64,000 nt of DNA from Myxococcus sp. RHSTA-1-4. GTDB lineage: Bacteria; Myxococcota; Myxococcia; Myxococcales; Myxococcaceae. Location of the stretch: assembly GCF_020037125.1 (NCBI RefSeq), contig NZ_JAIQDG010000001.1, positions 186,001 through 250,000 of the forward strand, given 5' to 3'. The translations under genes were made by a program, and so were the position numbers. Below are positions 45,405 through 50,939 of the stretch, in pieces. The number at the start of each line of letters is the position of its first letter. Positions within the stretch are counted from its first letter, which is position 1. Below the pieces are notes generated by a model, which was not told where the DNA came from, did not search any database, and saw only the letters and a program-made list of their open reading frames with translations.

Positions 45405-46439
45405 CTACCCCTCCTGCCGGGGCTCCAGCGGGCGGATGCCGGCCTTCTCCAGCAAAGCCATGTCCTGGCCGTACTCGGGGTTGCCGGTGGTGAGCAGCTT
45501 CTCGCCGAAGAAGAGCGAGTTGGCGCCCGCCATCATGCACAGCAACTGCGCCTCCTCGCTCATCTGCTGACGGCCCGCGGACAGGCGCACCATGGCCTGG
45601 GGCATGAGGATGCGGGCGGTGGCGATGGTACGCACCATGTCCACCGTCTCCACGCGCTGCTGCCCGGCCAGCGGGGTGCCCTCGACGGGGACGAGCGCGT
45701 TGATGGGCACCGACTCCGGGTGGTGCTCCTGGTTGGCCAGGGTGCGCAGGAGGTTGCAGCGGTCGTCCACGGACTCGCCCATGCCGATGATGCCGCCGCA
45801 GCACACGGAGATGCCGGCGTCACGCACCCGGTCCAGCGTCCGCAGCCGGTCGTCATAGGTGCGGGTGGAGATGATGTCGCCGTAGTGCTCGGGCGAGGTG
45901 TCCAGGTTGTGGTTGTACGCGGACAGGCCCGCCTCCTTGAGGCGCCTGGCCTGGCTGTCGGTGAGCATGCCCAGCGTGGCGCACGCCTCCATGCCCAGCG
46001 CGCGCACGCCGCGCACCATCTCCAGCACGCTGTCGAACTGCGGGCCGTCCTTCACCTCGCGCCACGCGGCGCCCATGCAGAAGCGCGTGGCCCCGGCGGA
46101 GCGGGCCTTCGCCGCGGCCTCCAGCACCTCCGGCACGGCCATCAGCTTCTCCGCCTTCACGCCCGTCTTGTAGCGGGCCGCCTGCGGGCAGTACGCGCAG
46201 TCCTCGGAGCAGCCGCCCGTCTTGATGGACAGCAGCGAGCACAGCTGCACCTTGTTGTCCTGGAACACGGCCCGGTGCACCGTCTGCGCCCGGTGGACCA
46301 GGTCCAGCAGGGGCATGGCGTAGATGGCGCGCACCTCGGCGAGCGACCAGTCATGGCGCACCTCGACGCCCGGAGGCGGCGGCACGGCCGTGTGGGTGTG
46401 GGCGTGGAAGGCCTCGCTGGAGGCGGAGGTGTCGGACAT
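45405..46439 (-). CDS. bioB: Biotin synthase
   Basis: A 344-residue radical-SAM enzyme that inserts sulfur into dethiobiotin. The SAM cluster motif C-x3-C-x2-C lies at Cys77, Cys81 and Cys84 in '[13 protein letters not shown]', and '[12 protein letters not shown]', '[11 protein letters not shown]' and 'RLSAGRQQM' are present. A GAGGAG ribosome-binding site precedes the ATG. It is the first gene of the biotin operon. bioA, bioC and bioH are not in the window, and no BirA-type operator palindrome was seen upstream. Confidence 0.96.
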
Positions 46440-46555
46440 GGGCTCCTCGGCAGGCGTGAGGAGCGCGAAGGTGTCCGGGCGGCGGGGACTTGTCAACGCT
46501 GGTGAGCAACGAGGTTGACGACTTTCGGCCCCGCCCCATTCGAAAGAGGCTGCCG

Positions 46556-46827
46556 CTAGACGTGGACGCGGCGCCTGCGGCCGGCCATGCCCACCAGGAA
46601 CAGCACCAGCATGGCGCCCAGGACGGAGAACAGCAGCCCGGACGGGTGCCGGTCGAAGATGCGGCCGTCACAGCGGAACAGGGAACCGATGAAACCGCCC
46701 ACGAAGGAGCCGGCGACGCCCAGCAGCGCGGTGGCGATGAGCCCCATGGACACTGGTTGCCCGGCATCAGCGCGCGGGCGATGAGGCCCGCCAGCAGGCC
46801 GATGACCAGGAAAGCGATGATCCCCAT
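46556..46827 (-). pseudogene. GlsB/YeaQ/YmgE-family membrane protein gene with a 2-nt frameshift
   Basis: A strong AGGGAGG ribosome-binding site precedes the ATG at 46827. The first 24 codons read 'GIIAFLVIGLLAGLIARALM' then PGNQ. The family normally continues with 'SMGLIATALLG', but here that part lies two bases out of frame: 'SMGLIATALLGVAGSFVGGF' through a third helix to a TAG at 46556. Plus-strand GGACACTGG around 46748-46756 has one AC too many. The 272-nt span is not divisible by three. The encoded protein would be a small three-helix general-stress membrane protein. It is either a real slippage mutation or a sequencing error. Confidence 0.75.
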
Positions 46828-47256
46828 GGCAACCTCCCTTGCTCGAGGGGCGCCGCGGGGTGCGACGCCCGGTTGGAAGCAAGGTGGTCCGTCCCTCCCG
46901 GCCGTACAACTTGACACGCGGGGGTTGACACCGTGCCTGCCTGCTCTCTGCCCGGGCCTGACAAACCGCGCTCTGCGCCCTCAGTTCGGAACTCGCAGTT
47001 CTCGAACGCGCTCAAGCCCGAAATTCGGCACCACAGCATCGTGCAACACCGGCCGTCGCACATTCGACGTCGGGGTAGTCTGTAGGGCGAGCCCGCGCAC
47101 CTGATTGATAACTTGCAGTTTCATAATGAAGTGGATTGGCGCGACGGGCAAGGAGGATTACAAGTCGCGCGCCCGTTCTTACGCGCCCCATCGACTACGG
47201 GTCCTGGCCGCCCCACTCGACGATGCGCCGGCCACCCCTGCTAGCCTGAGTCCACT
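46828..47256 (+). ncRNA. Gene-free leader of the deaminase island, with three inverted repeats (possible regulatory RNA)
   Basis: No convincing ORF lies in these 429 bp. Three short inverted repeats occur within 85 bp: TTCGGAACT/AGTTCTCGAA (46985-47006, one bulge), CCGAA/TTCGG (47018-47028) and CGTCG/CGACG (47054-47069). Related AvcD deaminases are preceded by a small inhibitory RNA (AvcI). This leader is in the right place for one, but no match to a known AvcI was or could be made. An AT-rich patch near 47105-47130 may hold a promoter. Confidence 0.25.
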
Positions 47257-48882
47257 ATGTCCGCAGCAGAGGCCATCCGTACACTCCCACTCGGTTCCCG
47301 AACAGGAACTGGTACCGGGTCGCGGGAAATCCTGAAAGAGCACACCGCCAACGAACTGGTGTTCGCCGTCGTTGGCCATGCTGGCTCTGGCACCACGTTC
47401 ATCGCGAGCACCCTTGCGAGGCTGCTTGCCAGTCCCCAAGGTGGTTCCTACGAGGTCGAACTCCTGAAGGGGCGCGAGGTCATCGTGGACTGGGCGCTTG
47501 AGCGCGGGCGACTAGCAGAGCCACCACGACGAGGTGACCTCACGCACACTATCGAGTTACAGAACTTGGGCGATGAACTGCGGAGCACTGACGCAACAGC
47601 GGTCGCCCGCCGCATGGCAGTTCTCATCCGAAAGACCCGAGCCAAGATGCAGGGCAAAAAGCCAAGCCCTGAACCGGTCCTGCCAGATGGTAAACCCAGG
47701 GCCTACATCATTGACGCCCTTCGGCATCCAGCGGAGGCATATCTCCTTCGAAGCCTCTACCGTAATGCCTTTTCGCTAGTTGGCGTCGTGTGCCAAGAGG
47801 AGATCCGCCGTAAGCGACTCCAGCAGAAGTACCCTGATGCAGGCGCCAACTCCATTGCCAAGTTCATGGAGCGCGACGCCAAGGACTCCGAGAAAAAGCA
47901 CGGCCAGCGAGTCGTAGACACCTTTCACCTTGCGGACTTCTTTCTTGATAACAGCGAAGATCGCCAGGTGGAGGATGGCGGCCAGAAAAAAGAGAATCCG
48001 CACTGGAAAGTAGATGAACACCTCCTGCGATTGGTCCGAATCGTCAAGCCCAAGCAAGATACTATCGAGCGGCCTACTGCAAGCGAAACGGCGATGCACG
48101 TCGCCTATGGGGCACAAATGCGTAGTGCGTGCCTATCTCGTCAGGTTGGAGCAGCCCTCGTCGATCCTTCTGGGAACGTAGCAGCGACTGGAACCAACGA
48201 AGTACCCAAAGCTGGCGGTGGAGTCTACGGACAAGGCGCTGACAGCATCGCGTCGCCCACTGAGCACCGCTGTGCGTTTCGTCCAGATAAGTACTGCAGC
48301 AACAATCTTGAGCAGGACGAGATTGCCGAAGAGGTCCTCAATACAGTTCATGATATCAAACCGTTGAGTTCGGAAGAGCGCAAACAACTCAAAAGCATGC
48401 TGCGCAAAAACTCTCGCATCGGAGGCCTCCTCGAATTTAGCCGTGCCGTGCATGCCGAAATGGATGCACTACTAGGCGCAGCGCGCATGGGAGTATCCCC
48501 CAAAGGATGCCGCCTGTTCGTGACGACATTCCCATGCCACTACTGTGCGCGTCATTTGGTCGAAGCAGGCGTAGATGAAGTTCAGTACATTGAGCCCTAC
48601 CCCAAGAGTCGTGCTTTGAAGCTCCACGGAGATTCTATCACAGAGCAAGCTCGGGATTGGAGGCCACCAAGCCAAGGTGGCACCAAGGTACTGTTCCGGC
48701 CGTTCACAGGAGTAGCGCCCAGGCTCTACTGGCGTGCATTCCTCAAGGATCGCGAACTCAAATCAAGCGACGGACGCATGCAGATTGGCGAGCCTGAGTG
48801 GGGTACAGCTTGGGACATTAGCAAGCTGAGCTACGCGGACTTGGAAACAAAGCTCATGGAGACGGAGTCCTCGTATGGCTAG
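47257..48882 (+). CDS. AvcD-like anti-phage deoxycytidine-nucleotide deaminase
   Basis: A 541-residue two-domain protein. The N-terminal half is a P-loop NTPase-like domain with 'VVGHAGSGTT' (residues 38-47), which lacks the usual Walker Lys, and 'YIIDALRHPAEAYLLRSLY'. The C-terminal part, from about residue 276, is a zinc dCMP/dCTP deaminase with catalytic HAE (His399, Glu401) and PCHYC (Cys427, Cys430). Architecture and length match AvcD and the defensive dCTP deaminases, which drain dCTP during phage infection. Codons end far more often in A or T than in the flanking genes, a sign of horizontal transfer. It overlaps the next gene by 8 bp. Confidence 0.85.
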   Translation: MSAAEAIRTLPLGSRTGTGTGSREILKEHTANELVFAVVGHAGSGTTFIASTLARLLASPQGGSYEVELLKGREVIVDWALERGRLAEPPRRGDLTHTIELQNLGDELRSTDATAVARRMAVLIRKTRAKMQGKKPSPEPVLPDGKPRAYIIDALRHPAEAYLLRSLYRNAFSLVGVVCQEEIRRKRLQQKYPDAGANSIAKFMERDAKDSEKKHGQRVVDTFHLADFFLDNSEDRQVEDGGQKKENPHWKVDEHLLRLVRIVKPKQDTIERPTASETAMHVAYGAQMRSACLSRQVGAALVDPSGNVAATGTNEVPKAGGGVYGQGADSIASPTEHRCAFRPDKYCSNNLEQDEIAEEVLNTVHDIKPLSSEERKQLKSMLRKNSRIGGLLEFSRAVHAEMDALLGAARMGVSPKGCRLFVTTFPCHYCARHLVEAGVDEVQYIEPYPKSRALKLHGDSITEQARDWRPPSQGGTKVLFRPFTGVAPRLYWRAFLKDRELKSSDGRMQIGEPEWGTAWDISKLSYADLETKLMETESSYG

Positions 48883-49450
48883 GTCGGGCGCAGTCTCCCA
48901 TCTCAGGTTGGTTGTTGCTTCCGAGGAAGAAGCTCCATCCACTTCACAAAACACGCAGACGCGCAGGGCGGTTCAGATGCCGCTCTTCTTCCATTCCGAC
49001 CCAAGATTCCTAGGGTTGGTGGATATGTCTGCGATGACTGCCAGCCCATTTGTTTCTCTTCTGAAAGAACTGCGCCCCCGCTGGGTGATGGACTTGCGAC
49101 CACTCCCTTTGCTTGATCTGGGAGGCACTAACCGGAGGTGGTTCTTCGATTTCTTCCAGCAACACGGAATACAATATTGTGATGTGTCTGGACGCCTCGG
49201 AGTCTCGATGCGCAACGACGCAGCCCTGTGCTCAACGGATGCAGCTGTTGCTATCAATGCTCTGCTTTCCCAAGCGGCACCTGATCAACGCGGATCCATT
49301 GGTCCAATAATCGTCCTCCTAGAGGATGCCAGGAGCATTGAAATTGCGGAGCGCATTCTCCCTTCAGCCCTCAAACCTGCTCCGTTGGAAGGCTGGGAAA
49401 CCTATCTGCTGGATGCTCGGCTCCTATCCCGTTCAGTCCGGAGGGCATGA
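48875..49450 (+). CDS. Small DUF488-like partner of the deaminase, function unknown
   Basis: A 191-residue soluble protein whose ATG lies 8 bp before the end of the deaminase gene, so translation is coupled. After an apparently disordered 35-residue start it reads 'MPLFFHSDPRFLGLVDMSAM', then 'LRPRWVMDLRPLPLLDLG', 'FDFFQQHGIQYCDVSGRLG' and 'IGPIIVLLEDARSIEIAERI'. The order resembles DUF488 proteins (HS-N near the start, VDVR, GI-x-Y, then a strand and a helix), but similarity is low and their late Cys/His is missing. Its low-GC codon use matches the deaminase. It could be an effector, an activity modulator or an antitoxin. Confidence 0.6.
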   Translation: MARSGAVSHLRLVVASEEEAPSTSQNTQTRRAVQMPLFFHSDPRFLGLVDMSAMTASPFVSLLKELRPRWVMDLRPLPLLDLGGTNRRWFFDFFQQHGIQYCDVSGRLGVSMRNDAALCSTDAAVAINALLSQAAPDQRGSIGPIIVLLEDARSIEIAERILPSALKPAPLEGWETYLLDARLLSRSVRRA

Positions 49451-49574
49451 ACTCACTCTTCGCAAGGCATCCGACCGGCCGCTTGGCCCAGTACTTGGCG
49501 CCTCGACCTCTGTGTAAGTAAGCAGGCACTAGAGCGAGAGCGGATGTCAGGTGTCTAGTGTACATCCCTCACCC

Positions 49575-50939
49575 ATGGCGAAGGCGAAGACGCACTACAC
49601 CTGCCAGGCGTGCGGGTACCAGACGGCGAAGTGGCTCGGGAAGTGCCCGGACTGCGGCGCGTGGAGCTCGCTGCTGGAGGAGACGGAAGCGAAGGCGGAC
49701 GAGAAGCGCCCGGCATGGGGCGCCTCGGGTGGGGCCGCGCGGCCCATGCTGCTCAAGGACGTGAGCGGCGAGACGGAGGTGCGCCGCCGCACCGGCATCG
49801 CCGAGTTCGACCGTGTGCTGGGCGGGGGCGTGGTGAGCGGCTCCGTGGTGCTGCTGGGCGGAGACCCGGGCATCGGCAAGTCCACGCTGCTGCTGGCGGC
49901 CCTGGACAGGCTGGCGCGCCACGGGCCGGTGCTCTACGTGTCGGGTGAGGAGAGCCTGCGCCAGACGAAGATGCGCGCCGAGCGGCTGCGGGTGGAGGCG
50001 GAGGCCATCCACCTGTTCGCGGAGACGGACGCGGAGCGGGTGCTGGCGGCCGCCGAGTCGCTCAAGCCGCAGGCGCTAGTGGTGGACTCCATCCAGACCA
50101 TGTACCTGCCGGAATTGGGCAACGCGCCGGGCAGCATCACCCAGGTGCGCGAGGTGGCGGGGCGGCTGATGGCGTACGCCAAGCGCACGGGGGTGCCCAC
50201 CTTCATCGTGGGCCACGTGACGAAGGAGGGCTCCATCGCGGGCCCGCGCGTGCTGGAGCACATGGTGGACACCGTCCTCTACTTCGAGGGCGAGCGCGGC
50301 CACCCGTTCCGCATCCTCCGCGCACACAAGAACCGCTTCGGCTCCACGAACGAGATTGGCGTCTTCGAGATGAAGGGCGCGGGGCTGGTGGAGGTGTCGG
50401 ACCCGTCCGCCCTCTTCCTCTCCGAGCGGCCGGTGGGCAAGTCGGGCAGCGTCGTCACCAGCACGCTGAACGGCACGAGGCCCCTGCTGGTGGAGGTGCA
50501 GGCGCTGGTGGCGCCCACGGGCTACGGCACCGCGCGGCGCACGGCCATTGGCGTGGACGGCAACCGCGTGGCGCTGCTGGCGGCGGTGCTGGAGAAGAAG
50601 GAGGAGATTCCGCTGGTGGGCTGCGACCTCTTCGTCAACGTGGCGGGCGGAATGCAGCTCAGCGAGCCCGCCTGTGATTTGGCGGTGTGCGCGGCGCTGG
50701 TGAGCAGCCTGCAGAACCGGCCGATGGACCCGCACACGCTGGTGCTGGGCGAGGTGGGCCTGGCGGGCGAGGTGCGTGCGGTGGGCCAGGTGGAGCCCCG
50801 GCTGGCGGAGGCCGCGAAGATGGGTTTCCAGCGCGTGGTGATGCCGGCAGGCAGCGCGCGGCGGCTGGAGAGCGCCGGGAAGATGCGGGTGGTGGGCGTG
50901 GAGACGCTCAGCGAGGCGCTGGCGGCGATGTTCGACTGA
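49575..50939 (+). CDS. radA: DNA repair protein RadA
   Basis: A 454-residue recombination helicase that promotes branch migration. It has a C4 zinc finger (Cys10, Cys13, Cys24, Cys27), Walker A 'GGDPGIGKSTLLLAAL', the RadA-specific 'HKNRFGSTNEIGVFEM', and a C-terminal Lon-like domain ('VGCDLFVNVAGGMQLSEPACDLA'). It is a core gene that marks the right edge of the low-GC island. Confidence 0.96.
   Translation: MAKAKTHYTCQACGYQTAKWLGKCPDCGAWSSLLEETEAKADEKRPAWGASGGAARPMLLKDVSGETEVRRRTGIAEFDRVLGGGVVSGSVVLLGGDPGIGKSTLLLAALDRLARHGPVLYVSGEESLRQTKMRAERLRVEAEAIHLFAETDAERVLAAAESLKPQALVVDSIQTMYLPELGNAPGSITQVREVAGRLMAYAKRTGVPTFIVGHVTKEGSIAGPRVLEHMVDTVLYFEGERGHPFRILRAHKNRFGSTNEIGVFEMKGAGLVEVSDPSALFLSERPVGKSGSVVTSTLNGTRPLLVEVQALVAPTGYGTARRTAIGVDGNRVALLAAVLEKKEEIPLVGCDLFVNVAGGMQLSEPACDLAVCAALVSSLQNRPMDPHTLVLGEVGLAGEVRAVGQVEPRLAEAAKMGFQRVVMPAGSARRLESAGKMRVVGVETLSEALAAMFD

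Follow-up and report, generated by a model that had tools for sequence, protein, structure and literature searches.

The question raised by this locus is whether the open reading frame (ORF) that overlaps the 3' end of an AvcD-type deaminase gene is a fixed partner of that deaminase and, if so, what it contributes. AvcD-type deaminases have been described either as the deaminase alone or as the deaminase together with an RNA antitoxin, and the depletion of dC nucleotides on infection is known for the family. A second protein, as supposed in the initial annotation of the window (the whole 64,000-nucleotide stretch of Myxococcus sp. RHSTA-1-4 DNA that was analyzed), would make this locus a variant of such systems.

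Organization of the locus

The avcD gene (47257..48882, + strand) starts with ATG and encodes a protein of 541 amino acids with a degenerate P-loop domain followed by a zinc deaminase domain. The partner gene (48875..49450, + strand) also starts with ATG and encodes 191 amino acids, comprising a disordered N-terminal tail and a DUF488-derived domain. These coordinates agree with the initial annotation, which had placed two ORFs here with an overlap of 8 bp; both lie on the same strand. A GGAG stretch is located a few bases 5' of the partner ATG, and there is no space for a promoter between the two genes.

The low-GC setting between a stress-membrane gene and radA, noted previously, was also confirmed. 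The GC content of the avcD–partner segment is approximately 0.55–0.57 compared to approximately 0.70 in its surroundings, and the segment is flanked by the region of a GlsB-type membrane gene (approximately 46.5–46.8 kb) and by radA (from approximately 49.55 kb). The corresponding site was empty in 19 of 19 genomes of the same genus, in which the flank up to approximately position 46948 is joined to radA (approximately 49570 onward) with about 50 nt between them. Therefore, the window carries an insertion of about 2.6 kb (46949..49569, unstranded) that corresponds exactly to the avcD–partner pair, the sole genes within it. Another genome of the genus, G105, has its own avcD–partner pair at 12.86 Mb and its radA at 8.61 Mb. 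Because the insertion consists of exactly the pair and the G105 pair lies at another site, the two genes appear to move as a unit, and the locus is best described as a putative horizontally moving two-gene anti-phage cassette. The possibility that the partner is passenger DNA of the island was rejected, since the pair constitutes the entire cassette and occupies different sites in different genomes.

The first gene encodes a predicted deaminase of the AvcD family

The avcD product exceeded the cut-off of NF041025 (anti-phage dCTP deaminase; 403 bits versus 400), scored 479 bits with the PADLOC dCTPase model, and matched Pfam dCMP_cyt_deam_1. Homology thus identifies the first gene as one for a predicted dCTP/dCMP deaminase of the AvcD family, in line with the initial assignment. 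The zinc and catalytic motif HAE (residues 399–401; 48451..48459, + strand) and the zinc motif PCHYC (residues 426–430; 48532..48546, + strand) were found at the residues first reported and were invariant in an 11-row alignment. The accompanying description of a P-loop had to be amended. The sequence GHAGSGTT has T at the position of the Walker A lysine, and the relatives in the 11-row alignment likewise have no Lys there; as this lysine is missing in all rows, the domain is better named a degenerate P-loop. AvcD reading frames in two pieces, due to a frameshift or a sequencing error, were observed at G098 (contig C7:24654-25963) and L046:2432-4049.

The partner accompanies a single AvcD clade

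AvcD relatives were gathered by AvcD similarity alone, without use of the partner, from a species-genome scan (8 loci), 145 genomes of the order, 195 genomes of the phylum, plasmids, and viral contigs; coverage outside Myxococcota was given by the collection scan, the plasmids, and the viral contigs. A search with a partner profile showed that each of the 19 independent AvcD genes of the window clade is immediately followed by a homologue, and the distance between avcD and the partner ranged from -98 to +3 nt when measured from the first possible start codon. These loci came from four myxobacteria, an Alphaproteobacteria MAG, three Acidobacteriota, Variovorax, Hyphomicrobium, Stutzerimonas, Nitrospira, three plasmids, three viral contigs, and a more divergent myxobacterium (L018). 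The pairing is not a matter of chance, because it recurs in every one of the loci, all of which were found through the AvcD sequence and not through the partner. An interpretation of the partner gene as a fortuitous ORF was similarly rejected on the basis of its conservation in all 19.

The partner was absent beside 25 AvcDs of other clades. A tree was constructed with 43 AvcDs, including 18 of the 19 partnered ones (L046, in which avcD is split, was omitted), and the partnered AvcDs formed one side of a single branch (SH-aLRT 98; one change, with 0 of 500 shuffles as low). L018 forms a long branch, and its placement in the tree is the least sure.

The partner itself was also used as the query. 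Four matches at an E value of 1e-3 or better were obtained in the 195 Myxococcota genomes, all of them adjoining AvcD, and every match in 72,556 plasmid records adjoined AvcD as well, so that no confident partner match away from AvcD was found in these genomes (at E 1e-3) or plasmid records. Two weaker matches in the Myxococcota genomes (E values, 0.008 and 0.016) came from remote families. Scans of viral contigs with single partners returned nothing or just the already known locus, and the partner alignment offered no pattern conserved enough for a collection-wide scan. These results bear out the proposal of a fixed partner: within this sample, it is an obligate, overlapping companion of one AvcD clade. 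Absence of the partner beside other myxobacterial AvcD genes had been named as evidence against such a pairing. It was indeed absent at 8 of 13 of them, but these 8 belong to other AvcD clades, and their lack of a partner thus counts against the pairing only if "AvcD" is taken to mean the whole family.

The partner derives from DUF488

The 191-residue partner showed no match in Pfam, NCBIfam, PADLOC, or PDB sequences. AlphaFold predicted a DUF488-like alpha/beta core at residues 45–165 (49007..49369, + strand; mostly pLDDT 80–93) behind a disordered N-terminal tail (pLDDT approximately 40–55), and a Foldseek search of the model against the PDB gave nothing significant, just weak alpha/beta matches. 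The core bears the signature DLR..P..D..R..Y.D with conserved R75, P78, D81, R87, Y101, and D103. In a profile–profile comparison by hhalign, in which the DUF488 side consisted of DUF488 proteins from the same bacterial family, the partner profile scored 94.6% against DUF488 with all 19 members and 73.6% (E value, 2.9e-5) without three divergent partners. The match to Pfam DUF488 (PF04343) extends over approximately 110–120 columns and includes a shared D(V/L)R..P...R core. Moreover, the divergent partner of L018 passes the Pfam DUF488 model itself (39.3 bits; cut-off, 22.2).

The window partner differs from Pfam DUF488 in having no Pfam match, in extending N-terminally into a tail that carries a clamp-type motif, and in lacking CxE..CHR, the C-terminal DUF488 signature, which is present in the DUF488 alignment and absent in the window partner and its near relatives. 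The earlier description of the partner as DUF488-like therefore stands with respect to the profile–profile comparison and the bridging L018 partner, but not with respect to the Pfam match and CxE..CHR in the window protein. By these comparisons, the partner is DUF488-derived and falls outside DUF488 by the Pfam rule. Since the signature residues of DUF488 have been lost, its domain probably binds rather than catalyzes.

A clamp-type motif in the partner tail

Two short motifs were identified in the tail. LRLV (residues 10–13; 48902..48913, + strand) is located at the extreme N-terminus and is recognizable as an LxLV-type sequence in 19 of 19 partners. QMPLF (residues 34–38; 48974..48988, + strand) matches the consensus of a Q-x-x-L-F sliding-clamp-binding-like motif. 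Across the family, this motif lies at residues 22–41, with Q present in all 19 partners and strict Q-x-x-L-F in 15; its variants include QMPLF in the window, QLSLF (L007 and L047), and QLELF (L018). The clamp-binding consensus is QL(S/D)LF and is loosely kept (PMC9690074). Shuffled tails contained Q..LF in 0.43 of 19 on average and in 4 at most, and the AvcD ORFs of the collected loci, which served as a control, contained one Q..LF in 34,456 residues. Both results led us to reject an effect of composition.

The C-terminal parts of two other proteins of the same genome carry comparable sequences, QSSLFG in DnaE and QLGLFP in DinB. Judging from these, the host clamp plausibly reads the QxxLF form, and the partner tail is a putative binder of the beta sliding clamp on the strength of a five-residue motif. 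There is a precedent in Caulobacter, where a motif of this kind mediates the binding of SocB, the toxin of a toxin–antitoxin pair, to DnaN (PMC9690074). Like SocB, the partner is a small protein of toxin–antitoxin type with a clamp-binding motif, but the resemblance between them is by motif only and is drawn from the description in that review.

Fusion of the partner to SPARTA components

The partner ORF runs without a stop codon into TIR-APAZ in two alphaproteobacterial loci, namely, the Alphaproteobacteria MAG (L002) and a Rhizobium gallicum plasmid (L046/L137). The gene order in both is avcD, the partner::TIR-APAZ fusion, and a short pAgo gene, forming composite AvcD–SPARTA operons (L002:7556-11058 and L137:2994-6400, NZ_CP092345.1). 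According to PADLOC analysis, the TIR-APAZ part scored 452 bits in L002 and 367 bits in Rhizobium, and the short pAgo scored 680 and 575 bits, respectively. Compared with SPARTA chains in the PDB, the L002 proteins gave E values of 1e-66 (TIR-APAZ) and 1e-130 (pAgo). The avcD gene of R. gallicum is annotated as two pieces. The fusion protein was matched by 34 plasmid records, of which the Rhizobium record is the only one covering most of it, including the partner domain.

Thus, in two relatives the partner forms the N-terminal domain of a TIR-APAZ protein that is followed by a short pAgo gene, whereas the window pair is accompanied by neither a TIR-APAZ nor a pAgo gene. No report of a fusion of AvcD or a DUF488-like protein with SPARTA was found in the open-access literature searched. 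The fusions show that the partner module is transferable to a second immune effector, and because it is joined to the TIR-APAZ effector in two loci, a targeting module fits better than a dedicated antitoxin.

Accessory genes of other AvcD clades

AvcID of Vibrio and E. coli (ETEC) is a type III toxin–antitoxin system composed of a dC deaminase toxin and the RNA antitoxin AvcI, which is lost once transcription stops (PMC10511110). The window deaminase resembles this toxin in its domain order, in HAE and PCxxC, and in exceeding the NF041025 cut-off. It differs in belonging to another clade, with approximately 31–35% identity to the E. coli, Klebsiella, Vibrio, and Photobacterium plasmid copies, and in that its clade has the obligate downstream protein partner and no detectable small ORF or conserved RNA in the upstream AvcI region. 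No Rfam match was obtained in 46400-49800, a search that would miss a structured RNA without a model. Upstream of the pair, no conserved DNA is shared by the window and G076, a relative with 70% identity, a comparison that a structured RNA without sequence conservation would escape.

Several of the classical AvcDs examined (E. coli, Klebsiella, Photobacterium, and viral copies) have no downstream partner but are preceded by a small ORF that ends in K(I/L)xW. These ORFs, of 56–61 amino acids with K(I/L)xW just before the stop codon, lie at the expected AvcI position (L049:2148-2318, L050:2209-2394, L098:2652-2828, L159:705-887, and L160:2195-2377), and none appeared among the upstream ORFs listed for the partnered loci. 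The 8 of 13 myxobacterial AvcDs that lack the partner belong to a different clade with a small downstream ORF bearing W-P-x-W; such ORFs, of 60–113 amino acids with conserved W-P-x-W-(K/M/L), were identified at L019-L026, L051, L094, and L095, which include all 8 of them. A third AvcD group, from viral contigs, has a small downstream ORF (L086:4466-4678, L091:1619-1903, L088:1686-1916, and L092:3149-3511) with QLSLTLEF, QLSLDF, or QxSLLL near its N-terminus, a possible clamp-type motif. The small accessory ORFs of other clades that were tested gave no convincing Pfam family match. Overall, the AvcD tree is sorted by accessory gene, with four label changes against a minimum of three.

As for the plasmid loci, avcD is almost the sole cargo gene of 4.6-kb plasmids of E. 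coli and Klebsiella (L159, L160, and others). On the Pseudosulfitobacter plasmid (L047:4995-6593), a ThiF-type adenylyltransferase gene and a multiubiquitin-domain gene adjoin the avcD pair in a defense-like neighborhood.

Possible role of the partner

Our best reading, held tentatively at a little short of even confidence, is a two-protein AvcD variant in which the partner is an adaptor that tethers the effector to the sliding clamp. This role is favored because it explains both the clamp-type motif and the SPARTA fusion. AvcD, with an activity taken here from its family, would deplete dC nucleotides on infection. The partner would act as an adaptor or sensor, its tail docking on the beta sliding clamp and its DUF488-like domain holding or controlling AvcD, which would thereby be positioned at the replication fork or be released when the fork is disturbed. 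In this clade, the partner may have taken the regulatory place that AvcI RNA has for the AvcD of Vibrio and E. coli. An AlphaFold model of the read-through AvcD–partner chain of the Nitrospira locus (L009) gave no reliable interface.

The partner might instead be an antitoxin protein, which keeps AvcD inactive and disappears upon infection, so that a type III (RNA) AvcID would have become a type II (protein) system. Such a swap of regulators would leave behind an obligate partner and a missing AvcI-region pattern, and the partner is obligate and overlapping, the K(I/L)xW ORF is unseen upstream of partnered genes, and the upstream DNA is not conserved. However, an antitoxin has no need of a clamp-binding motif, its fusion to the effector subunit of the unrelated SPARTA system is hard to explain, and the toxin gene stands first in the pair. 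We consider this explanation unlikely. A role as a second effector is improbable; in this scheme, the partner would block the sliding clamp in the manner of Caulobacter SocB, and dC depletion and clamp blockade together would stop phage replication. The motif in the tail and the binding of SocB to DnaN through such a motif (PMC9690074) speak for it, but simple clamp blockade would not require the conserved DUF488-like core, and the TIR-APAZ fusion points to a module for aiming an effector, not to an effector as such. The least probable explanation is that the DUF488-like domain acts as an enzyme on, or as a sensor of, the nucleotides that are substrate or product of AvcD (dCTP, dUTP) and that QxxLF contacts AvcD instead of the clamp, given that R75, P78, D81, R87, Y101, and D103 could form a ligand site and that a ParB-CTPase-fold protein fused to DUF488-HTH binds CTP, which is ascribed to the ParB-type fold (PMC12704722), but that the DUF488 CxE..CHR signature is absent and QxxLF copies the motif form of DnaE and DinB of the same genome.

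The adaptor reading can be extended into a broader one, which we regard as conceivable but doubtful. A DUF488-derived adaptor would tether immune effectors (AvcD, and SPARTA by fusion) to the beta sliding clamp, making the replication fork the site at which infection is sensed or countered, and different small accessory proteins would have arisen in the various AvcD clades, with a clamp-type motif (QLSLDF) in at least one more of these proteins.

No paper linking DUF488 or a clamp motif to this deaminase was found in the open-access literature searched, and an earlier mention in subscription papers is possible. The findings indicate that in one entire AvcD clade the system consists of two proteins, the second being widely conserved and unannotated, and that accessory genes sort with the clades across the whole AvcD family. 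Calling this defense by a single gene would miss part of the system in this clade. Should the clamp motif prove real, it would offer a testable explanation of how nucleotide depletion by an effector could be coupled to phage replication.
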